From Brachyhypopomus gauderio (taxonomy: Eukaryota > Chordata > Actinopteri > Gymnotiformes > Hypopomidae), in NCBI RefSeq assembly GCF_052324685.1, contig NC_135214.1, positions 1,942,817-2,006,816 of the forward strand: a stretch of DNA of 64,000 bases. Direction: 5' to 3'. Position numbers and translations under genes: made by a program. Shown here piece by piece: positions 957 to 58,539 of the stretch (its first letter is position 1; each line of letters opens with the position of its first letter). The notes beneath the pieces are model-generated. The model had not been told where the DNA came from, searched no databases, and worked only from the letters and a program-made list of their open reading frames with translations.

Positions 957-3900
957 CTGGCTGCTCACTGCTAGCGTAGGAGAGGAAGAACCCACGCCCG
1001 TGGCTGTGTGGCCCACTCATGAACTGCACCGTCACCTGGTGGCTGGCGGCCTCCACCACCCTGGGCCCACTCACATCTCCATGGCAGAGTTTCACTGTGT
1101 GGGGGGGCAAGAGTGGACCAGCGCTCGTTATTAGGTGTGGTGTAGCCTACTGAAGTGGTTCACACAAGCTTAAATGTGTTACTGCTAATTTAGAACAAAC
1201 GTCCAGCCTGGTGAAGTGAATGTCTGTGATTATGAGCCTGAGGTAAAACGAAATGGCAGGCAGAGCTCGACAGCACAGAACACCATAAGGTAACGCCCCA
1301 CCTGCCCCATGGGGTAACGCCCCACCTGCCCCATGGGGTAACGCCCCACCTGCTAACAGCAACACCCAACAACAGCAGTGTATAAACTGTGCTCAAACTA
1401 GCCCAGCTGTTATCATGTAACCTGTTCAAACTAACCTGGCTGTTCTCACATGAGCAAGCTGAAGTATTTTCAGGCTGAATTTGTGATGGAATTGGATCAG
1501 TTTAAAAACATGTTCACTGAAATCCGAAACACGGTTTCATTATCAGAATGCTCCTTAAAAAGAACACGATGCTACACTTCTACTAAACATGACACAGCCA
1601 ATGTACTCACGACCAACAGAGATAAAATATCTAACTCTGCTCTTTTGTCATATGCTAAAACATAGTGGTGAACTCTGGATGTAGCTTAAAGACCAGCCTG
1701 CATTACTTTGATTCATGTTTGTGGGAGCATGTGAATGTTGTGCCTGATTAAAACACCCACTGGGGGCTGAAGGCGATATCAGTACTACAGGGGCCACAGG
1801 GGCTATATCGGCGATATCAAGAGTACAGGGGCTATATCGGCGATATCAGGACTACAGAAGCTATATCAGCAATATCAGGACTAAAGGGGCTATATCGGCG
1901 ATATCAGGACTAAAGGGGCTAAATCAGCGATATCAGGGCTACAGGAGCTATATCAGTGATATCAGGACTACAGGGGATATATCGGCGATATCAGGACTAC
2001 AGGGGCTATATCGGCGATATCAGGACTACTGGGGCTATATCGGCAATATCAGTATCGGTGATATCGGAACTACAGGGGCTATATCGGTGATATCAGAACT
2101 ACAGGGGCTATATCGGTGATATCGGAACTACAGGGGCTATATCGGTGATATCAGGGCTACAGGGGCTATATCGGTGAAATCAGAACTACAGGGGCTCTAT
2201 CGGTGATATTAGGGCTACAGGGGCTATATCGGTGATATCAGAACTACAGGGGCTGTATCGGTGATATCAGAACTACAGGGGCTATATCTGCGATATCAGA
2301 ACTACAGGGGCTATATCGGCGATATCAAAACTACAGGGGCTATATCGGTGATATCAGTATTACAGGGGCTATATCGGTGATATCAGGGCTACAGGGGCTA
2401 TATCGGTGATATCAGGGCTACAGGGGCTATATTGGTGATATCAGAACTACAGGGGCTATATCGGTGATATCAGGGCTACAGGGGCTATATCGGTGATATC
2501 AGGGCTACAGGGGCTATATCGGTGATGTCAGGGCTACAGGGGCTATATCGGTGATATCAGAACTACAGGGGCTATATCGGTGATATCAGGGCTACAGGGG
2601 CTATATCGGTGATATCAGAACTACAGGGGCTATATCGGTGATATCAGTACTACAGGGGCTACATCGGTGATATTAGAACTACAGGGGCTATATTGGTGAT
2701 ATCAGGGCTACAGGGGCTATACCGGTGATATCAGAACTACAGGGGCTATATCGGTGATATCAGAACTACAGAGGCTATATTGGTGATATCGGGTCCAACG
2801 AACCACCCTGCTCCCCTGCCACATGTTAATTCTCATCACTTCTCTCAGTCCTACTTTCTCACGTATGATCTTTGTTCTGTCTGCAAGGTCACAGGTGTAG
2901 CAGCCAATGACCACGACTGCAGTGCAAGAGCAGAAGAGTGAAGAACAACTCCCTCACCGATCTCGGTCCGGGCCGCGCCGATCCCGTTGAACAGCCGCAG
3001 GTACGACACCTGGCAGTTTTGCGTGTCGATGTCGAGGTCGGCCACACGCAGGATGAGTGTGTGTCCCGCCGTCTCAGTGATCTCCCACTCACACACCGAA
3101 TGGGTGGGGTAAGAGAGGGGGTAACCCAGGGAGGCCAAGCTGCCGCTGCCCCGGCCGAACACCGTGTGACCACAGCCATCCCCTACAACATACATGGAGG
3201 CAATACAAATAGAGTCATAGAAAAAGGGCACAGAGAGACCTGACACACAGAAGTCACAGAAACAGAATTCACAGATGCATTAAAGTGAAGGCAGGAATCA
3301 CAGAAATAATGCAGAAATATGCATTACAGTGTAGGAGTCAAATGTTTGTTCACTGTAAAAATACTATCTATACCACAGTATAGTAGTATACTTTGAATGC
3401 ATGAAGATCTGTATTGAGATTGTTGAAGAAACATTGTCATTTTCCCTTAACAGTATGACTTCTAATCAATGATGAGAAAAGATCTGAAATTAAAATTATA
3501 GACAATGAAGACAAACTACATTTCTCCATCAGCAGAGTGGTGGGAAATGGATTTTAGCATTAGCTAATGGTGTCATGAGGCCTACATCTGTAGTGACCTT
3601 CCAATTAAATTTTACTGCCCGTCTTGTACAGCTGAACGAAGCGATCACACGGTCAAATGTTATTGGAGACATTTACTGCAACATCAGCGCAATGCATTGT
3701 TAAGTGGGTATCACGTTTCGGTTTGTGCCGGAGACACACACACACACACACACATACACACACACGCTAGCGAGGTCGCAGCTGATCGCACATCGTTTAC
3801 ACACCGAATCCTCTCGCGCTGTAGTTACGTAACCGGTACTGGACGATCTCCAGAAGCCCAAAGCAAAAACATCCTCACCTACCTTTCAAGGTCTCTGCTC

Positions 3901-4607
3901 ACCACAACACACACAGATACACACTGAAATGCACATGAACACACACTAAGAACCACATGTTCACTTTTTTATTGTACAACTAGAGAATAAACACGCGACA
4001 TTGTGGATAATCTATTATTGACTTGTGCTTGACATGCAAAATGACTATTTGTTGGGTGGACAGAACCGTTCCGCAATCCAGGGCGAATCTATTACGTTGT
4101 TTCCCGTTATCGAACCCAGCCGAACCCCCCCCCCCCCCCCCATCCCGTCCCGTCCCTCCCCCGCTGGGAAGTCGAGCAAATGGTGCGACCCCCTCTTGTG
4201 ATCACCTGAAACCCCCTTTCACAAAACACACTTCTCCTGCAGGTCCGCGGGACTCTTTGATCCTCCTGGACCTGGTGTCCGGTCCAGCCTCGCAAGAGCT
4301 GCCGCTGCTGCATATTTGGGCTAGTGGAGAAAGTGCTGTCGGTCCATGTAAGGTATTCAGCGGAGAGGCACCACGGTGTGACCACTATCTCACCGGAACC
4401 GCAACAGTGCGGCGGGCTGGGCGGGCAGCACCGATGCGGGGGTGGACCGTTCCGGGCCCGTTCGAGAAACTTTCACCAACTCCGGGGAAACTCCGCGCGA
4501 AGTGCACACGTACCTTTCTGCGCCCGGGAGCCTCTCGCGGAGAGGAGGAGGAGGAGGGTGATGATAAGGACGAAGATCGCAGCCCCTCCGGTTCCTCTCC
4601 CCACCAT
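957..4607 (-). CDS. dcbld2: dcbld2, 5' part: coding exons 1-3 (signal peptide and CUB domain)
   Basis: DCBLD2 is a single-pass membrane receptor with CUB, LCCL and discoidin domains. Three minus-strand exons are visible. Exon 1 (4607-4514) encodes a start methionine and a strongly hydrophobic signal peptide (AIFVLIITLLLLL), ending at a GTACGT donor. Exon 2 (3182-2958) begins GDGCGHTVFG and carries CEWEI and YLRLFNGIG, typical of the first half of the DCBLD2 CUB domain. Exon 3 (1094-957) carries VQFMSGPHSHGRGFFLSY, the end of the CUB. Exon lengths of 94, 225 and 138 nt join in frame with GT-AG boundaries, giving about 152 residues. Four CUB cysteines are present (DGC, SVC, QNC, KLC). The LCCL, discoidin, transmembrane and cytoplasmic parts must lie left of position 1. 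The match to human DCBLD2 rather than DCBLD1 is from memory of the family; a fish-specific paralogue is possible. Confidence 0.88.
1289..1352. repeat. Short 24-bp tandem repeat
   Basis: About 2.7 copies of a 24-bp unit beginning GGTAACGCCCCACCTG in dcbld2 intron 2. The rest of 1100-1770 in this intron shows no recognisable feature. Confidence 0.85.
1773..2790. repeat. 29-bp minisatellite in dcbld2 intron 2
   Basis: About 35 tandem copies of a 29-bp unit made of GGGGCTATATCGGTGATATC followed by AGAACTACA or a variant (AGGGCTACA, AGTACTACA). Left-end copies tend to carry CGGCGATATC and right-end copies CGGTGATATC, so the array has a sequence gradient. Each unit contains the palindrome GATATC. 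The array ends about 165 bp before the donor of exon 2. Confidence 0.9.
3183..4513 (-). other. dcbld2 intron 1
   Basis: Intron between the signal-peptide exon and the first CUB exon, bounded by a GTACGT donor at 4513 and a TTGTAG acceptor at 3183. It contains a short CA repeat near 3735-3765 and a 17-C homopolymer at 4125-4141. No other feature was recognised. Confidence 0.8.
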
Positions 4608-4860
4608 TAGCGATGCATCCATCCCAGCCTGCAGTCCGAATGCATAATGCACACTGCACGAGCGGGCCGGACGGTGAACGTGCGCGAGACAGGCCCGAAC
4701 CGCGGGCGTCGTTAGTCGCCGTCGGTGATCTCCGTGTCGCTGCCGCTTTACCAGATATTCCGGTGTCCGTCGCAGCTTTTAGCGGCGCTCCGTCAGGTAA
4801 CGGTTCTCGCTCGTTCTTCAAATCAGACACATCCCCGATCTGTTAAAGGACTTCCTCCAC
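4140..4860 (-). promoter_or_regulatory. dcbld2 promoter / CpG-rich first-exon region
   Basis: This GC- and CpG-rich stretch surrounds the first coding exon of dcbld2 and contrasts with the AT-rich and satellite DNA on both sides. No TATA box is evident. A three-codon upstream ORF (ATG at 4618, Met-His-Arg-stop) ends in a TAA whose last A is also the first base of the main ATG at 4607. The transcription start is not determinable here. The 13-kb satellite begins about 75 bp beyond the right edge, so any more distal promoter element lies beyond the array. Confidence 0.55.
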
Positions 4861-4934
4861 TTCCGCTCCTCCCACCGCACAGCGGCCCCTAGTCGGGGGG
4901 GTTGTGGTGGGCCGACCACTCACGGGCTGCCATG

Positions 4935-7900
4935 CCCTACACACTGATCATAACACACCCTACACACTGATCATAACACCCTACACACTGATCATAACAC
5001 ACCCTACACACTGATTATAACACACCCTACACACTGATCATAACACACCTTAAACACTGATCATAACACACCCCACACACTGATCATAACACACCCTACA
5101 CACTGATCATAACACACCCTACACACTGATCATAACACCCTACACACTGATTATAACACGCCCTACACACTGATTATAACACGCCCTACACACTGACCAT
5201 AACACCCTACACACTGATCATAACACACCCTACACACTGATTATAACACACCCTACACACTGATTATAACACACCCTACACACTGATTATAACACGCCCT
5301 ACACACTGATCATAACACACCCTACACACTGATCATAACACACACTACACACTGATTATAACACACCCTACACACTGATCATAACGCACTCTACACACTG
5401 AGTATAACACACCCTACACACTGATCATAACACCCTACACACTGATTATAACACACCCAAGACACTGATCATAACACACCCTACACACTGATCATAACAC
5501 CCTACACACTGATCATAACACCCTACACACTGATCATAACACACCCTACACACTGATCATAACACACCCAACACACTGATCATAACACACCCTACACACT
5601 GATCATAACACACCCTACACACTGATTATAACACACCCTACACACTGATTATAACACGCCCTACACACTGATCATAACACACCCTACACACTGATCATAA
5701 CACACCTTACACACTGATCATAACACACCCTACACACTGATCATAACACACACTACACACTGATTATAACACACCCTACACACTGATCATAACGCACTCT
5801 ACACACTGAGTATAACACACCCTACACACTGATCATAACACCCTACACACTGATTATAACACACCCAACACACTGATTATAACACACCCTACACACTGAT
5901 TATAACACGCCCTACACACTGATTATAACACGCCCTACATACTGACCATAACACCCTGCACACTGATCATAACACCCTACACACTGATTATAACACACCC
6001 TACACACTGATCATAACACACCCTACACACTGATTATAACACGCCACACTGATCATAACACCCTACACACTGATCATAACACACCTTACAGACTGATCAT
6101 AACACACTACACACTGATCATAACAAACACTACACACTGATTATAACACACCCTACACACTGATCATAACACACACTACAAACTGATTATAACACGCCCT
6201 ACACACTGATCATAACACACCCTACACACTGATCATAACACACCCTACACACTGATTATAACACGCCCTACACACTGATCATAACACACCCTACACACTG
6301 ATCAACACACCCTACTCACTGATCATAACACACCCTACACACTGATCATAACACCCTACACACTGATCATAAAATCCTACACACTGATCATAACACACCC
6401 TACACCCTGATTATAACACACCCTACACACTGATCATAACACACCTTAAACACTGATCATAACACACCCTACACACTGATCATAACACACCCTACACACT
6501 GATCATAACACACCCTACACACTGATCATAACACCCTACACACTGATCATAACACACCCTACACACTGATCATAACACCCTAAACACTGATTATAACACA
6601 CCCTACACACTGATTATAACACACCCTACACACTGATTATAACACGCCCTACACACTGATCATAACACACCCTACACACTGATCATAACACACACTACAC
6701 ACTGATTATAACACACCCTACACACTGATCATAACGCACTCTACACACTGAGTATAACACACCCTACACACTGATCATAACACCCTACACACTGATTATA
6801 ACACACCCAACACACTGATCATAACACACCCTACACACTGATTATAACACACCCTACACACTGATTATAACACGCCCTACACACTGATTATAACACGCCC
6901 TACACACTGACCATAACACCCTGCACACTGATCATAACACCCTACACACTGATTATAACACACCCTACACACTGATTATAACACGCCACACTGATCATAA
7001 CACCCTACACACTGATCATAACACACCTTACAGACTGATCATAACACACTACACACTGATCATAACACACACTACACACTGATTATAACACACCCTACAC
7101 ACTGATCATAACACACACTACAAACTGATTATAACACGCCCTACACACTGATCATAACACACCCTACACACTGATCATAACACACCCTACACACTGATTA
7201 TAACACGCCCTACACACTGATCATAACACACCCTACACACTGATCAACACACCCTACTCACTGATCATAACACACCCTACACACTGATCATAACACCCTA
7301 CACACTGATCATAAAATCCTACACACTGATCATAACACACCCTACACCCTGATTATAACACACCGTACACACTGATCATAACACACCCTACACACTGATC
7401 AACACACCCTACTCACTGATCATAACACACCCTACACACTGATCAACACACCCTACACACTGATCATAACACCCTACTCACTGATCATAACACACCCTAT
7501 ACACTGATCATAACACACCCTACACACTGATCATAACACACCCTACACACTGATCATAACACCCTACACACTGATCATAACACCCTACACACTGATCATA
7601 ACACACCCTACACACTGATCATAACACACCCAACACACTGATCATAACACACCCTACACACTGATCATAACACACCCTACACACTGATTATAACACACCC
7701 TACACACTGATTATAACACACCCTACACACTGATTATAACACGCCCTACACACTGATCATAACACACCCTACACACTGATCATAACACACCTTACACACT
7801 GATCATAACACACCCTACACACTGATCATAACACACACTACACACTGATTATAACACACCCTACACACTGATCATAACGCACTCTACACACTGAGTATAA

Positions 7901-10900
7901 CACACCCTACACACTGATCATAACACCCTACACACTGATTATAACACACCCAACACAATGATCATAACACACCCTACACACTGATTATAACACACCCTAC
8001 ACACTGATTATAACACGCCCTACACACTGATTATAACACGCCCTACACACTGACCATAACACCCTGCACACTGATCATAACACCCTACACACTGATTATA
8101 ACACACCCTACACACTGATCATAACACACCCTACACACTGATTATAACACGCCACACTGATCATAACACCCTACACACTGATCATAACACACCTTACAGA
8201 CTGATCATAACACCCTACACACTGATCATAACACACACTACACACTGATTATAACACACCCTACACACTGATCATAACACACACTACAAACTGATTATAA
8301 CACGCCCTACACACTGATCATAACACACCCTACACACTGATCATAACACACCCTACACACTGATTATAACACACCCTACACACTGATCATAACACACCTT
8401 AAACACTGATCATAACACACCCTACACACTGATCATAACACACCCTACACACTGATCATAACACACCCTACACACTGATCATAACACACCCTACACACTG
8501 ATCATAACACCCTACACACTGATCATAACACACCCTACACACTGATTATAACACACCCTACACACTGATTATAACACACCATACACACTAATTATAACAC
8601 GCCCTACACACTGATCATAACACACCCTACACACTGATCATAACACACACTACACACTGATTATAACACAACCTACACACTGATCATAACGCACTCTACA
8701 CACTGAGTATAACACACCCTACACACTGATCATAACACCCTACACACTGATTATAACACACCCAACACACTGATCATAACACACCCTACACACTGATTAT
8801 AACACACCCTACACACTGATTATAACACGCCCTACACACTGATTATAACACGCCCTACACACTGACCATAACACCCTGCACACTGATCATAACACCCTAC
8901 ACACTGATTATAACACACCCTACACACTGATCATAACACACCCTACACACTGATTATAACACGCCACACTGATCATAACACCCTACACACTGATCATAAC
9001 ACACCTTACAGACTGATCATAACACCCTACACACTGATCATAACACACACTACACACTGATTATAACACACCCTACACACTGATCATAACACACACTACA
9101 AACTGATTATAACACGCCCTACACACTGATCATAACACACCCTACACACTGATCATAACACACCCTACACACTGATTATAACACACCCTACACACTGATC
9201 ATAACACACCTTAAACACTGATCATAACACACCCTACACACTGATCATAACACACCCTACACACTGATCGTAACACACCCTACACACTGATCATAACACC
9301 CTACACACTGATCATAACACACCCTACACACTGATCATAACACCCTACACACTGATCATAACACACCCTACACACTGATCATAACACACACTACAAACTG
9401 ATTATAACACGCCCTACACACTGATCATAACACACCCTACACACTGATCATAACACACCCTACACACTGATTATAACACACCCTACACACTGATCATAAC
9501 ACACCTTAAACACTGATCATAACACACCCTACACACTGATCATAACACACCCTACACACTGATCATAACACACCCTACACACTGATCATAACACACCCTA
9601 CACACTGATCATAACACCCTACACACTGATCATAACACACCCTACACACTGATTATAACACACCCTACACACTGATTATAACACACCATACACACTAATT
9701 ATAACACGCCCTACACACTGATCATAACACACCCTACACACTGATCATAACACACACTACACACTGATTATAACACAACCTACACACTGATCATAACGCA
9801 CTCTACACACTGAGTATAACACACCCTACACACTGATCATAACACCCTACACACTGATTATAACACACCCAACACACTGATCATAACACACCCTACACAC
9901 TGATTATAACACACCCTACACACTGATTATAACACGCCCTACACACTGATTATAACACGCCCTACACACTGACCATAACACCCTGCACACTGATCATAAC
10001 ACCCTACACACTGATTATAACACACCCTACACACTGATCATAACACACCCTACACACTGATTATAACACGCCACACTGATCATAACACCCTACACACTGA
10101 TCATAACACACCTTACAGACTGATCATAACACCCTACACACTGATTATAACACACCCTACACACTGATCATAACACACACTACAAACTGATTATAACACG
10201 CCCTACACACTGATCATAACACACCCTACACACTGATCATAACACACCCTACACACTGATTATAACACACCCTACACACTGATCATAACACACCTTAAAC
10301 ACTGATCATAACACACCCTACACACTGATCATAACACACCCTACACACTGATCGTAACACACCCTACACACTGATCATAACACCCTACACACTGATCATA
10401 ACACACCCTACACACTGATCATAACACCCTACACACTGATCATAACACACCCTACACACTGATTATAACACACCCTACACACTGATTATAACACACCCTA
10501 CACACTGATTATAACACGCCCTACACACTGATCATAACACACCCTACACACTGATCATAACACACACTACACACTGATTATAACACAACCTACACACTGA
10601 TCATAACGCACTCTACACACTGAGTATAACACACCCTACACACTGATCATAACACCCTACACACTGATTATAACACACCCAACACACTGATCATAACACA
10701 CCCTACACACTGATTATAACACACCCTACACACTGATTATAACACGCCCTACACACTGATTATAACACGCCCTACACACTGACCATAACACCCTGCACAC
10801 TGATCATAACACCCTACACACTGATTATAACACACCCTACACACTGATCATAACACACCCTACACACTGATTATAACACGCCACACTGATCATAACACCC

Positions 10901-13900
10901 TACACACTGATCATAACACACCTTACAGACTGATCATAACACCCTACACACTGATTATAACACACCCTACACACTGATCATAACACACACTACAAACTGA
11001 TTATAACACGCCCTACACACTGATCATAACACACCCTACACACTGATCATAACACACCCTACACACTGATTATAACACACCCTACACACTGATCATAACA
11101 CACCTTAAACACTGATCATAACACACCCTACACACTGATCATAACACACCCTACACACTGATCGTAACACACCCTACACACTGATCATAACACCCTACAC
11201 ACTGATCATAACACACCCTACACACTGATCATAACACCCTACACACTGATCATAACACACCCTACACACTGATTATAACACACCCTACACACTGATTATA
11301 ACACACCCTACACACTGATTATAACACGCCCTACACACTGATCATAACACACCCTACACACTGATCATAACACACACTACACACTGATTATAACACAACC
11401 TACACACTGATCATAACGCACTCTACACACTGAGTATAACACACCCTACACACTGATCATAACACCCTACACACTGATTATAACACACCCAACACACTGA
11501 TCATAACACACCCTACACACTGATTATAACACACCCTACACACTGATTATAACACGCCCTACACACTGATTATAACACGCCCTACACACTGACCATAACA
11601 CCCTGCACACTGATCATAACACCCTACACACTGATTATAACACACCCTACACACTGATCATAACACACCCTACACACTGATTATAACACGCCACACTGAT
11701 CATAACACCCTACACACTGATCATAACACACCTTACAGACTGATCATAACACCCTACACACTGATCATAACACACACTACACACTGATTATAACACACCC
11801 TACACACTGATCATAACACACACTACAAACTGATTATAACACGCCCTACACACTGATCATAACACACCCTACACACTGATCATAACACACCCTACACACT
11901 GATTATAACACGCCCTACACACTGATCATAACACACCCTACACACTGATCAACACACCCTACTCACTGATCATAACACACCCTATACACTGATCATAACA
12001 CCCTACACACTGATCATAAAATCCTACACACTGATCATAACACACCCTACACCCTGATTATAACACACCGTACACACTGATCATAACACACCCTACACAC
12101 TGATCAACACACCCTACTCACTGATCATAACACACCCTACACACTGATCAACACACCCTACACACTGATCATAACACCCTACTCACTGATCATAACACCC
12201 TACACACTGATCATAACACACCCTACACACTGATCATAACACACCCTACACACTGATCATAACACACCCTACACACTGATCATAACACCCTACACACTGA
12301 TCATAACACCCTACACACTGATTATAACACCCTACACACTGATCATAACACCCTACACACTGATCATAACACACCCTACACACTGATTATAACACACCCT
12401 ACACACTGATTATAACACACCCTACACACTGATTATAACACACCCTACACACTGATCATAACACACCCTACACACTGATCATAACACACACTACACACTG
12501 ATTATAACACACCCTACACACTGATCATAACGCACTCTACACACTGAGTATAACACACCCTACACACTGATCATAACACCCTACACACTGATTATAACAC
12601 ACCCAAGACACTGATCATAACACACCCTACACACTGATCATAACACCCTACACACTGATCATAACACCCTACACACTGATCATAACACACCCTACACACT
12701 GATCATAACACACCCAACACACTGATCATAACACACCCTACACACTGATCATAACACACCCTACACACTGATTATAACACACCCTACACACTGATTATAA
12801 CACGCCCTACACACTGATCATAACACACCCTACACACTGATCATAACACACCTTACACACTGATCATAACACACCCTACACACTGATCATAACACACACT
12901 ACACACTGATTATAACACACCCTACACACTGATCATAACGCACTCTACACACTGAGTATAACACACCCTACACACTGATCATAACACCCTACACACTGAT
13001 TATAACACACCCAACACACTGATTATAACACACCCTACACACTGATTATAACACGCCCTACACACTGATTATAACACGCCCTACATACTGACCATAACAC
13101 CCTGCACACTGATCATAACACCCTACACACTGATTATAACACACCCTACACACTGATCATAACACACCCTACACACTGATTATAACACGCCACACTGATC
13201 ATAACACCCTACACACTGATCATAACACACCTTACAGACTGATCATAACACACTACACACTGATCATAACAAACACTACACACTGATTATAACACACCCT
13301 ACACACTGATCATAACACACACTACAAACTGATTATAACACGCCCTACACACTGATCATAACACACCCTACACACTGATCATAACACACCCTACACACTG
13401 ATTATAACACGCCCTACACACTGATCATAACACACCCTACACACTGATCAACACACCCTACTCACTGATCATAACACACCCTACACACTGATCATAACAC
13501 CCTACACACTGATCATAAAATCCTACACACTGATCATAACACACCCTACACCCTGATTATAACACACCCTACACACTGATCATAACACACCTTAAACACT
13601 GATCATAACACACCCTACACACTGATCATAACACACCCTACACACTGATCATAACACACCCTACACACTGATCATAACACCCTACACACTGATCATAACA
13701 CACCCTACACACTGATCATAACACCCTAAACACTGATTATAACACACCCTACACACTGATTATAACACACCCTACACACTGATTATAACACGCCCTACAC
13801 ACTGATCATAACACACCCTACACACTGATCATAACACACACTACACACTGATTATAACACACCCTACACACTGATCATAACGCACTCTACACACTGAGTA

Positions 13901-16900
13901 TAACACACCCTACACACTGATCATAACACCCTACACACTGATTATAACACACCCAACACACTGATCATAACACACCCTACACACTGATTATAACACACCC
14001 TACACACTGATTATAACACGCCCTACACACTGATTATAACACGCCCTACACACTGACCATAACACCCTGCACACTGATCATAACACCCTACACACTGATT
14101 ATAACACACCCTACACACTGATTATAACACGCCACACTGATCATAACACCCTACACACTGATCATAACACACCTTACAGACTGATCATAACACACTACAC
14201 ACTGATCATAACACACACTACACACTGATTATAACACACCCTACACACTGATCATAACACACACTACAAACTGATTATAACACGCCCTACACACTGATCA
14301 TAACACACCCTACACACTGATCATAACACACCCTACACACTGATTATAACACGCCCTACACACTGATCATAACACACCCTACACACTGATCAACACACCC
14401 TACTCACTGATCATAACACACCCTACACACTGATCATAACACCCTACACACTGATCATAAAATCCTACACACTGATCATAACACACCCTACACCCTGATT
14501 ATAACACACCGTACACACTGATCATAACACACCCTACACACTGATCAACACACCCTACTCACTGATCATAACACACCCTACACACTGATCAACACACCCT
14601 ACACACTGATCATAACACCCTACTCACTGATCATAACACACCCTATACACTGATCATAACACACCCTACACACTGATCATAACACACCCTACACACTGAT
14701 CATAACACCCTACACACTGATCATAACACCCTACACACTGATCATAACACACCCTACACACTGATCATAACACACCCAACACACTGATCATAACACACCC
14801 TACACACTGATCATAACACACCCTACACACTGATTATAACACACCCTACACACTGATTATAACACACCCTACACACTGATTATAACACGCCCTACACACT
14901 GATCATAACACACCCTACACACTGATCATAACACACCTTACACACTGATCATAACACACCCTACACACTGATCATAACACACACTACACACTGATTATAA
15001 CACACCCTACACACTGATCATAACGCACTCTACACACTGAGTATAACACACCCTACACACTGATCATAACACCCTACACACTGATTATAACACACCCAAC
15101 ACAATGATCATAACACACCCTACACACTGATTATAACACACCCTACACACTGATTATAACACGCCCTACACACTGATTATAACACGCCCTACACACTGAC
15201 CATAACACCCTGCACACTGATCATAACACCCTACACACTGATTATAACACACCCTACACACTGATCATAACACACCCTACACACTGATTATAACACGCCA
15301 CACTGATCATAACACCCTACACACTGATCATAACACACCTTACAGACTGATCATAACACCCTACACACTGATCATAACACACACTACACACTGATTATAA
15401 CACACCCTACACACTGATCATAACACACACTACAAACTGATTATAACACGCCCTACACACTGATCATAACACACCCTACACACTGATCATAACACACCCT
15501 ACACACTGATTATAACACACCCTACACACTGATCATAACACACCTTAAACACTGATCATAACACACCCTACACACTGATCATAACACACCCTACACACTG
15601 ATCGTAACACACCCTACACACTGATCATAACACCCTACACACTGATCATAACACACCCTACACACTGATCATAACACCCTACACACTGATCATAACACAC
15701 CCTACACACTGATCATAACACACACTACAAACTGATTATAACACGCCCTACACACTGATCATAACACACCCTACACACTGATCATAACACACCCTACACA
15801 CTGATTATAACACACCCTACACACTGATCATAACACACCTTAAACACTGATCATAACACACCCTACACACTGATCATAACACACCCTACACACTGATCAT
15901 AACACACCCTACACACTGATCATAACACACCCTACACACTGATCATAACACCCTACACACTGATCATAACACACCCTACACACTGATTATAACACACCCT
16001 ACACACTGATTATAACACACCATACACACTAATTATAACACGCCCTACACACTGATCATAACACACCCTACACACTGATCATAACACACACTACACACTG
16101 ATTATAACACAACCTACACACTGATCATAACGCACTCTACACACTGAGTATAACACACCCTACACACTGATCATAACACCCTACACACTGATTATAACAC
16201 ACCCAACACACTGATCATAACACACCCTACACACTGATTATAACACACCCTACACACTGATTATAACACGCCCTACACACTGATTATAACACGCCCTACA
16301 CACTGACCATAACACCCTGCACACTGATCATAACACCCTACACACTGATTATAACACACCCTACACACTGATCATAACACACCCTACACACTGATTATAA
16401 CACGCCACACTGATCATAACACCCTACACACTGATCATAACACACCTTACAGACTGATCATAACACCCTACACACTGATTATAACACACCCTACACACTG
16501 ATCATAACACACACTACAAACTGATTATAACACGCCCTACACACTGATCATAACACACCCTACACACTGATCATAACACACCCTACACACTGATTATAAC
16601 ACACCCTACACACTGATCATAACACACCTTAAACACTGATCATAACACACCCTACACACTGATCATAACACACCCTACACACTGATCGTAACACACCCTA
16701 CACACTGATCATAACACCCTACACACTGATCATAACACACCCTACACACTGATCATAACACCCTACACACTGATCATAACACACCCTACACACTGATTAT
16801 AACACACCCTACACACTGATTATAACACACCCTACACACTGATTATAACACGCCCTACACACTGATCATAACACACCCTACACACTGATCATAACACACA

Positions 16901-17958
16901 CTACACACTGATTATAACACAACCTACACACTGATCATAACGCACTCTACACACTGAGTATAACACACCCTACACACTGATCATAACACCCTACACACTG
17001 ATTATAACACACCCAACACACTGATCATAACACACCCTACACACTGATTATAACACACCCTACACACTGATTATAACACGCCCTACACACTGATTATAAC
17101 ACGCCCTACACACTGACCATAACACCCTGCACACTGATCATAACACCCTACACACTGATTATAACACACCCTACACACTGATCATAACACACCCTACACA
17201 CTGATTATAACACGCCACACTGATCATAACACCCTACACACTGATCATAACACACCTTACAGACTGATCATAACACCCTACACACTGATCATAACACACA
17301 CTACACACTGATTATAACACACCCTACACACTGATCATAACACACACTACAAACTGATTATAACACGCCCTACACACTGATCATAACACACCCTACACAC
17401 TGATCATAACACACCCTACACACTGATTATAACACGCCCTACACACTGATCATAACACACCCTACACACTGATCAACACACCCTACTCACTGATCATAAC
17501 ACACCCTATACACTGATCATAACACCCTACACACTGATCATAAAATCCTACACACTGATCATAACACACCCTACACCCTGATTATAACACACCGTACACA
17601 CTGATCATAACACACCCTACACACTGATCAACACACCCTACTCACTGATCATAACACACCCTACACACTGATCAACACACCCTACACACTGATCATAACA
17701 CCCTACTCACTGATCATAACACCCTACACACTGATCATAACACACCCTACACACTGATCATAACACACCCTACACACTGATCATAACACACCCTACACAC
17801 TGATCATAACACCCTACACACTGATCATAACACCCTACACACTGATTATAACACCCTACACACTGATCATAACACCCTACACACTGATCATAACACACCC
17901 TACACACTGATTATAACACACCCTACACACTGATCTTAACATCTTACACACTGATCAC
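4935..17958. repeat. 13-kb minisatellite, 23/21-bp unit with higher-order structure
   Basis: A continuous tandem array whose basic unit is CCCTACACACTGATCATAAC followed by ACA (23 bp) or A (21 bp), with a rarer 20-bp form lacking ATA (TGATCAACACA). By length it holds roughly 580 units. Variants (GATTATA, ACGCC, GAGTATA, CTTACAG, CACTAATTATA) recur in a fixed order, giving higher-order repeats. The truncated unit ACGCCACACTGATC occurs at about 6041, 6983, 8149, 8961, 10068, 10878, 11688, 13187, 14129, 15295, 16402 and 17212. The unit length is not a multiple of three and stops occur in every frame, so there is no coding potential. It ends in degenerate units before GGGGGG at 17959. Confidence 0.97.
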
Positions 17959-21744: not shown

Positions 21745-22381
21745 ACTACAACCAGAGGTGGGTAGAGTATTCAACAATTTTACTCAAGTAAAAGTACAGT
21801 TACTTGAACCAAATGTTACTCAAGTAAAAGTAAAATTATGCATCCCAAAAATTTACTTGAGTAAAAGTAAAAAAGTACTTTGATTAAAAGCTACTCAAGT
21901 AGTGAGTAAATGCATGAGTACTGTCTCGTGTCAGTAAATTACATCATGGGAAATTGAATTACGGGAAACAATGACTTTTAATGATAAAAATAATTTATTA
22001 TAAATAAATATATATATATATAAATTATTTATTATAAATAATGTGTATTTTTGTTTGTTCCTAATTATTAGGCCTGTGTAACTTTAATGTGTTCCACAAA
22101 GGCACTAACTGATGAGACTGTCAGCCAATACGTGTAGCTACAACTTGACACCAACTGAATCAATTTGTAGCAGACTTAATCATCCTATATTGCTAGTGTG
22201 TACAATCAGTGTGAGAACTGGTTTTTAGTATTGCACTGCGTTACATTTAATAATTACATCATACAAATGTTATGCCTCAGAGATATAGCATTACACAAAA
22301 TTATACATACAGCAAACTCATATTTGATGTTGAGTTCTTGTAGGCTGAAATGTCCACACGTTTGCAGACACAATTGGCAGC

Positions 22382-24492: not shown

Positions 24493-25705
24493 GTGAATTT
24501 AGGTACGTCTGAGGAATCAGACGGTCTAATGTGGATGGATAGTTCGGCTTTTAATACAATCTTGCCCAGCAAGCTATTTTATAAGCTGCAGCAGATGGGA
24601 ATTCATAATTCCCTCTGTAATTGGATTCTTGACTTTTTAACACAGAGATCACAAGTGGTCAAAATCCATAATAACACCTCAGAGGTCAGATTCATAAGCA
24701 CTGGTGCCCCTCAGGGATGTGTGCTATCACCTCTTTTATATTCTCTGTACACAAATGATTGTAAATCACACACTGAGTCTGTTAAAATGATAAAATTTGC
24801 GGATGATACTACAGTAGTAGGTCTAATTTCGGATGATAATGATGATTCTGCATATAGGAACGAGGTACAGGCACTTATGCAATGGTGTGACATCCATAAT
24901 CTAGAGGTAAATGTAGCTAAAACTAAGGAGCTAGTTGTAGACTTCCGCAGACAAAAGAAGGCATCTCAGCCCCTGTACATAAACAGTGTGAAAGTGGAAC
25001 GAGTGAATAGTTTTAAAATCCTAGGCACAACAATAGAATCTTCCCTGAAATGGGACCAAAATCTTAATTGTATCACCATAAAAGCTCACCAGAGACTCTT
25101 CTTCTTGCGTCAGCTGAGGAAGTTTGGGGTGGCCCGTGAGGGGATGTTGCAGTTTTACCGTGCAGCTATTGAAAGTGTTCTGACCTTTTCTATCACTGTC
25201 TGGTATGGCAACTCCACGGTCCAGCAGAGGATGCAGGTAGACAAGGTAGTTCGCACAGCCTCAAAAATCATTGGCTGCAAACTTCCCTGCATCTCTAGCA
25301 TTTACAAAACACGCATCTGTCGGAAAGCACTGAAAATACTACATGATCGATCACATCCAGCTAACTCCTTCTTTAGCGTCCTCCCATCAGGTAGGAGGTT
25401 GAGAGCCACAACATCTAAAACATCACGTTTTCTCAACAGCACATACTGCAGCGCCATCAGGCACTTAAATAGCCTCCCTACCCTGCACCAACACCTTAAA
25501 TTAAACCACTGTGACTGACATATAGTTGTTAATACTTTTATTTGATATTTGCTATATATATTTATTATGTATCTTGTGCGTAATATGTTATTTATGTCTT
25601 TTACTGTGTTTTTATGTTTCTTGTCAAATGAGCACACTGAAACAAATCCCTAGCAACTAGCACAAGTTGCATGGCAATAAAGTATTGAATCTCGAATCTC
25701 GAGTC
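24493..25705 (+). mobile_element. 5'-truncated non-LTR retrotransposon with reverse transcriptase domain (L2/CR1 group)
   Basis: An uninterrupted 341-residue frame (24493-25518) encodes the C-terminal two thirds of a reverse transcriptase. [20 protein letters not shown] and the catalytic FADDTTVVG are visible, followed by [14 protein letters not shown] and a C-terminal LPSGRRLRA region. The endonuclease and the N-terminal part of the RT are missing, as expected of 5' truncation during target-primed reverse transcription. The 3' end carries GCAATAAAGTATTGAATC followed by a short TCGAATCTCGA tail, typical of L2-like elements. It cannot encode a complete retrotransposon. Clade assignment rests on motif style from memory; a related group such as Rex1/Babar is not excluded. 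Confidence 0.85.
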
Positions 25706-39978: not shown

Positions 39979-40026
<48 letters not shown>

Positions 40027-40068
40027 ACAGACCTACACACACACACACACACACACACACGGACACAG

Positions 40069-40132
<64 letters not shown>

Positions 40133-40202
40133 ACAGACCTACACACACACACACACACACAGACTTACACAGACATACACACACACACACACACACACAC
40201 AC
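39979..40202. repeat. CA-rich compound tandem repeat
   Basis: Long CA runs interrupted at intervals by ACAGACCTACAC, ACGGACACAGACATAC and ACAGACTTAC blocks, suggesting a minisatellite that grew out of a CA microsatellite. Confidence 0.92.

Positions 40203-51477: not shown

Positions 51478-58539
<7,062 letters not shown>

Follow-up and report, generated by a model that had tools for sequence, protein, structure and literature searches.

Irregular higher-order repeats in a 13-kb minisatellite upstream of a DCBLD2-like coding start in Brachyhypopomus gauderio

Higher-order repeats are typical of centromeric satellites. Related organization has also been described in variable number tandem repeats (VNTRs): the human 61-bp VNTR at Xp22.33 is presented as an 18-kb array whose higher-order repeats, 1.6 and 2.5 kb long, are irregular (PMC2588610), and an account of the CACNA1C VNTR mentions the duplication of long stretches of 30-bp units (PMC13131567). 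Smaller steps are described for MSY1, the haploid human Y minisatellite, whose length mutants are reported to change by 1–3 units (PMC2599865), and for house-mouse minisatellites, some alleles of which are described as carrying duplicated blocks of several units (PMC1929145). Here we analyse a tandem array of 19–23-bp units lying in a 64,000-nucleotide stretch of the Brachyhypopomus gauderio genome (C4:1942817-2006816, hereafter the window), upstream of the likely coding start of a DCBLD2-like gene. The array consists of irregular higher-order repeats nested at three levels, and we consider it likely that it is a single-locus non-coding minisatellite, a VNTR by kind, that grew by out-of-register recombinational repair. 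All array measurements given below were made on one assembled allele, from sequence only. Coordinates without a prefix are those of the window.

4935..17958, forward strand: whole minisatellite array, 579 units of 23, 21 or 19 bp; commonest unit CTGATCATAACACACCCTACACA

Tandem Repeats Finder reported a single array (4935-17957, period 23, 579.7 copies, 89% matches), and splitting 4935-17958 at the CTGA core yielded 579 units of 36 types, so that the roughly 580 short units counted in the first-pass annotation of this DNA were recovered by both routes. Unit length was 23 bp in 436 cases, 21 bp in 131 and 19 bp in 12. The units stand head to tail at one locus, as far as counted, which places the array among the minisatellites, and among arrays of at least 300 bp with periods of 7–500 in the 264 kb examined it is the longest by far. 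Its strand bias is strong, with a GC skew of about -0.7, and its edges carry unit types that are present only once. A landmark sequence, ACGCCACACTGATC, occurs 12 times in the array, at spacings of 942, 1166, 812, 1107, 810, 810, 1499, 942, 1166, 1107 and 810 bp; all eleven distances had previously been counted by hand and proved exact. The array is made of ordered, divergent monomers in blocks, with identity between blocks exceeding that between monomers, which defines it as higher-order repeats; these are irregular, as block length is not constant and the landmark spacings range from 810 to 1499 bp.

The unit order repeats beyond chance. The longest run of unit types occurring twice comprises 140 units, compared with no more than 13 in 200 shuffles of the unit order, no more than 9 in 500 further shuffles and no more than 13 in 200 first-order Markov strings, which bears out the earlier statement that variant units keep their order within blocks. 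A greedy Lempel-Ziv parse required 101 phrases for the real order, against a minimum of 322 among the 200 shuffles and 192 among the 200 Markov strings. At the scale of single units, by contrast with the blocks, the array shows no rise in identity at lag 1: neighbours differ by 1.89 edits on average and all pairs by 1.86, and 12% of neighbouring pairs are identical compared with 13% of random pairs. Identity does rise at numerous lags equal to a block or longer, for example 36, 49, 85, 246, 282 and 318 units.

The landmarks cut the array into thirteen stretches of 1105, 942, 1166, 812, 1107, 810, 810, 1499, 942, 1166, 1107, 810 and 731 bp, the first and the last being ended by the array edges. 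The blocks of the second level are as follows.

6049..6990, forward strand: 942-bp block, 42 units; identical copy at 13195-14136
6991..8156, forward strand: 1166-bp block, 52 units; identical copy at 14137-15302
8157..8968, forward strand: 812-bp block, 36 units; an equivalent 812-bp stretch is missing in the second superblock copy (below), its exact place being ambiguous
8969..10075, forward strand: 1107-bp block, 49 units; identical copy at 15303-16409
10076..11695, forward strand: two identical 810-bp blocks, 36 units each; one identical copy at 16410-17219
11696..13194, forward strand: composite 1499-bp block, 67 units, containing the superblock junction

The identical copies uphold the proposal of whole-block duplication, for blocks of about 810 bp and upwards. 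The block types are also close to one another: the 1107-bp type differs from the 812-bp type by having 13 additional units, and eight of the ten pairs among the 942-, 1166-, 812-, 1107- and 810-bp types show 0–8 mismatches per 787–942 aligned columns (0–1.0%), counting aligned columns only and leaving gaps uncounted. Pairs involving the edge stretches or the composite block contain more mismatches, up to 44 of 1,074 and 40 of 729 columns, probably because global alignment forces units that do not correspond together.

Above the blocks lies a third level, a near-whole-array duplication, which adds to the two levels recognized in the first-pass annotation.

4935..5296, forward strand: left edge, 362 bp, outside the large duplication; two unit types (h, i) present once
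5297..12410, forward strand: superblock copy 1, 7,114 bp
12411..12442, forward strand: junction of the superblock copies, 32 bp
12443..17934, forward strand: superblock copy 2, 5,492 bp, lacking one 812-bp and one 810-bp block
17935..17958, forward strand: right edge, 24 bp; degenerate last unit, type j, present once

Comparison of 5297-12410 with 12443-17934 revealed no substitutions over 5,492 bp, corresponding to an upper bound on divergence of about 0.055% (rule of three, 0/5,492). The placement of the blocks missing in copy 2 is ambiguous, with 629,500 equivalent placements. Only the 362 bp on the left, the 32 bp of the junction and the 24 bp on the right fall outside both superblocks. 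Divergence thus decreases by level, from about two edits between units through 0–1.0% between most block types to zero between superblocks.

Growth of this array by block copying rather than by one-unit slippage is indicated because adjacent units resemble each other no more closely than units paired at random; by analogy with MSY1, slippage of one unit at a time would be expected to give runs of like neighbours. The route that we favour is out-of-register recombinational repair, either by synthesis-dependent strand annealing or by unequal exchange between sister chromatids or alleles, in copying events that would span from a few units to several hundred. Several steps of such a route can be read off the array: blocks of 810–1166 bp are present in whole copies, the 1107-bp type has 13 units more than the 812-bp type, and nearly the entire array is doubled, in copies that are free of substitutions. 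An order and a direction for these events may be inferred, as may copying by repair and not by template switching in replication, although template switching would leave a similar trace. The last doubling may have joined two alleles or sister arrays that differed by two blocks.

In a toy simulation with eight settings (two mutation settings per step size, 30 runs each), the longest repeated run did not exceed 43 units with steps of 1–3 units or 48 units with steps of 5–15, whereas step sizes ranging up to the whole array gave runs of 57–286 units, compared with the observed 140. This support for a mixture of long and shorter steps is only qualitative, because the phrase count and the number of unit types were poorly matched, and here several observations weigh against growth by long-range copying as we propose it. 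The observed 101 phrases were spanned by only one of the eight settings, log-uniform steps at the higher mutation rate (55–108); steps of 5–15 units at the lower mutation rate narrowly missed them, with 102–195. Simulations with long steps retained 3–19 unit types, fewer than the 36 observed. Two of the ten block-type pairs differ more than the rest, at 13 of 940 columns (1.4%) and 32 of 1,103 columns (2.9%), probably through forced alignment around large gaps. The whole reconstruction is moreover based on a single assembled allele. The literature on human repeats also points partly in another direction. A pedigree study reports that none of 27 de novo structural variants in tandem repeats lay at recombination breakpoints (PMC12240836), and on that account a crossover between homologues is not to be assumed; a long-read study links tandem-repeat diversity to replication slippage (PMC10502081), a link which would favour small steps.

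The array starts some 330 bp from the start codon of the DCBLD2-like gene, on the upstream side; the gene reads away from it.

4001..5000, no strand assigned: CpG-island-like stretch adjoining the array (500-bp windows: GC 0.58–0.63, CpG observed/expected 0.83–1.0)
4514..4607, reverse strand: likely first coding exon of the DCBLD2-like gene, signal-peptide-like and with a donor site, as read from the sequence
2962..3183, reverse strand: exon with a CUB domain (Pfam CUB, E 2.9e-11), which probably belongs to the DCBLD2-like gene as well

When the CUB exon was compared with solved structures, 28 distinct sequences matched and the best was cubilin; the name DCBLD2 is therefore not derived from that search. 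Further left, one of three stretches scanned gave a discoidin-like match (F5/F8 type C, E 0.00045, below the family cut-off; L057:6482-6901). Beyond the right end of the array lie a reverse transcriptase stretch, a collagen-C1q gene and a Jagunal gene, and then a PB1-domain stretch whose score falls slightly short of its cut-off. The genes are presumably DCBLD2, COL8A1, JAGN1 and TFG, and the neighbourhood presumably resembles that of human 3q12. The array lies about 1.95 Mb from one end of C4 (37.0 Mb) in an assembly of 796.5 Mb and 840 contigs.

Alternative explanations were considered for the top level of the hierarchy and for the nature of the array as a whole. The doubling could be an artefact of assembly, two haplotypes having been joined in series or the array unrolled once too often, an explanation that would leave the lower levels real. 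The absence of substitutions over 5,492 bp would fit such an error, as would the two block differences between the superblocks, which two alleles might show, and a second allele of the array was not seen elsewhere in the assembly. Against this, the unique flank is nowhere duplicated, and the junction lies inside the array and measures only 32 bp. The base to the left of copy 2 is A (12442) and that to the left of copy 1 is G (5296), and the unit order at the junction, gBACCCAECFGBb, differs from that at the left edge, iACCDAECFGBb; a plain misjoin of identical overlaps would create no new variant, although a consensus error, or a second allele carrying the A, could still yield one. We therefore regard an assembly origin of the doubling as unlikely. 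Levels one and two depend much less on the assembly, because the block types differ each in their own ways.

With respect to the nature of the array, the higher-order repeats described for alpha satellite (PMC2588610) would be matched if the locus were one island of a dispersed or centromeric satellite family in a gene flank. A search of the genome for the canonical 23-bp unit, as the first-pass annotation had proposed, returned at least 436 matches with two or fewer mismatches, equal to the 436 in the array itself; the first 100 matches listed all fall in the array, and the other strand gave none. The counts thus do not show the abundance, at centromeres or across many chromosomes, that is expected of a centromeric satellite, and the unit seems confined to this locus, although such counts of repeats are minimum values and the assembly may lack centromeres. 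The landmark matched the genome 15 times, three of these outside the array (C4:14115994, C5:12268358 and C10:2156019), and in the 2 kb around each outside match the unit core (CTGATCATAACA or CTGATTATAACA) was not found on the landmark's strand. Protein-domain exons flank the array on both sides. A CENP-B-type box had no match in the array on either strand; the box is not required in all species. Membership of a satellite family is accordingly most improbable. It is also very unlikely, though less remote, that the array is a constrained regulatory tract of the DCBLD2-like promoter, such as a binding-site array, a chromatin boundary or a transcribed repeat, whose order is kept by selection. Its position beside the CpG-island-like stretch and close to the start codon would suit such a role, as would its strand bias and the weak TGATCA hairpins predicted for one 116-base piece folded as either single strand (z -2.6 in both cases). 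However, Rfam families numbered zero in the window at gathering score, no long open frame is present (at most 62 codons), variants and unit lengths are freely mixed along the array, and recent copying alone explains the kept order. The plainest reading is that the array was left behind by DNA repair next to a promoter.

Other candidate identities were rejected: a coding repeat, the longest open stretch in the array being 62 codons; a structured RNA, given the same lack of an Rfam match; and a telomere-like origin, as TTAGGG occurs only twice on the G-rich strand. Insertion as a mobile element was likewise rejected: the 120-bp flanks share direct words of up to 8 bases, the upper limit of the test, at which the shared word is a run of G, and inverted words of up to 6 bases. 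Relatives elsewhere were not accepted either: single matches to a 16-base pattern in 28 viral contig stretches and one single match in a Paenibacillus contig were taken as chance.

A weaker hierarchy is seen at another locus of the same genome. An array of 27-bp units about 100 kb leftward of the window (L048:1253-3428, 2,176 bp, about 81 copies) has 58% identical units at lag 29 and a longest repeated run of 8 units, compared with at most 5 in 500 shuffles; an offset of 862 bp gives 77% base identity, fifth behind the offsets of one to four units. This block-scale repeat shows that the 23-bp locus is not alone in its organization. The unit order of a 21-bp array (465-911) and of a 29-bp array (1796-2790) does not exceed that of their own shuffles. 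These two minisatellites adjoin exons of the DCBLD2-like gene, and the three arrays of 21-, 29- and 23-bp units are situated or start within 5 kb of one another.

The position of the array beside a CpG-island-like stretch raises the question of where the breaks behind its growth may arise. In minisatellites of the MS32 and CEB1 type, germline mutation is reportedly concentrated at one end, next to a recombination hotspot. In fish with a partial PRDM9, recombination is described as raised near transcription starts and CpG islands (PMC5519329; PMC11703093). Meiotic breaks might target CpG-island promoters in this fish, nested-block minisatellites might be scars of such breaks, and the array, recently doubled nearly in full, might then rank among the largest of these scars and serve as a live reporter of a promoter hotspot; we put this forward as a speculation that is rather improbable. 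A point against it comes from salmonids, in which full-length PRDM9 is described as placing hotspots (PMC11703093). In the 264 kb, a CpG island lies no more than 2 kb from six of the ten arrays, compared with a mean expectation of 2.5 (P = 0.017 by random placement and 0.030 by circular shift). Within 1 kb the count is two of ten (P = 0.60 and 0.59), and within 3 kb six of ten (P = 0.057 and 0.085). Overlapping array rows were merged for this test, and one array (L040:7217-7588) was dropped together with the island that it formed by itself; a further island, at about 2700-3200, partly coincides with the end of the 29-bp array. The outcome, suggestive at the 2-kb distance only, comes from a small test that was picked once the data had been seen, and by itself it is no evidence.

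Other repeats were noted in the window. A LINE-like (long interspersed nuclear element) reverse transcriptase (24529-25518; Pfam RVT_1, E 1.5e-20), open throughout, stands between the array and the collagen gene. Long runs of the dinucleotides AC/GT and CT occur very often, at 39981-40202, 56542-56721 and many other places; they measure up to 222 bp (with 84% matches) and, where perfect, 180 bp. At 21776-21872 a motif of 36 bp is present in 2.6 copies and gives the impression of belonging to a dispersed element.

The array is of value because a single allele preserves, in clean form, how a minisatellite grew at several scales. The size range of the copying events can be read from it, and this argues against one-unit slippage as the main engine here. 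If promoter-directed recombination were the cause, arrays of this kind could assist the mapping of hotspots in fish genomes without the need for crosses.

Literature searches returned no published work on this array among the titles and abstract openings listed. It can be compared with described systems. Alpha satellite, as described in PMC2588610, is alike in having an ordered block of divergent monomers with nearly identical blocks. The fish array differs in being a single short locus with a 19–23-bp unit, irregular block lengths and no CENP-B-type box. MSY1 is alike in that the order of variant units records mutation history, and synthesis-dependent strand annealing is invoked for it (PMC2599865). 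In contrast to the long runs of one unit type described for MSY1, the fish array has no runs of like neighbours, and its copies comprise tens to hundreds of units. In the mouse example a few units are described as duplicated (PMC1929145), whereas in the fish array the duplications measure kilobases. The CACNA1C 30-bp VNTR (TRACT) is likewise a large gene-associated minisatellite, of 3–30+ kb; it is intronic, human and known from many alleles, whereas the fish array lies upstream of a coding start and is represented by one allele. The closest likeness is to the human Xp22.33 VNTR, which shares a short unit, a non-centromeric location, irregular kilobase higher-order repeats and a complex arrangement, and which differs in unit length and sequence and in being pseudoautosomal; near-whole-array doubling is not described in the VNTR section of its report (PMC2588610). 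Together with the nearby 27-bp array, this human VNTR leaves unsupported the suggestion of the first-pass annotation that such a hierarchy is unusual outside centromeres, in a gene-flanking minisatellite. Higher-order repeats in VNTRs are already published, and the fish array adds a member of that kind.

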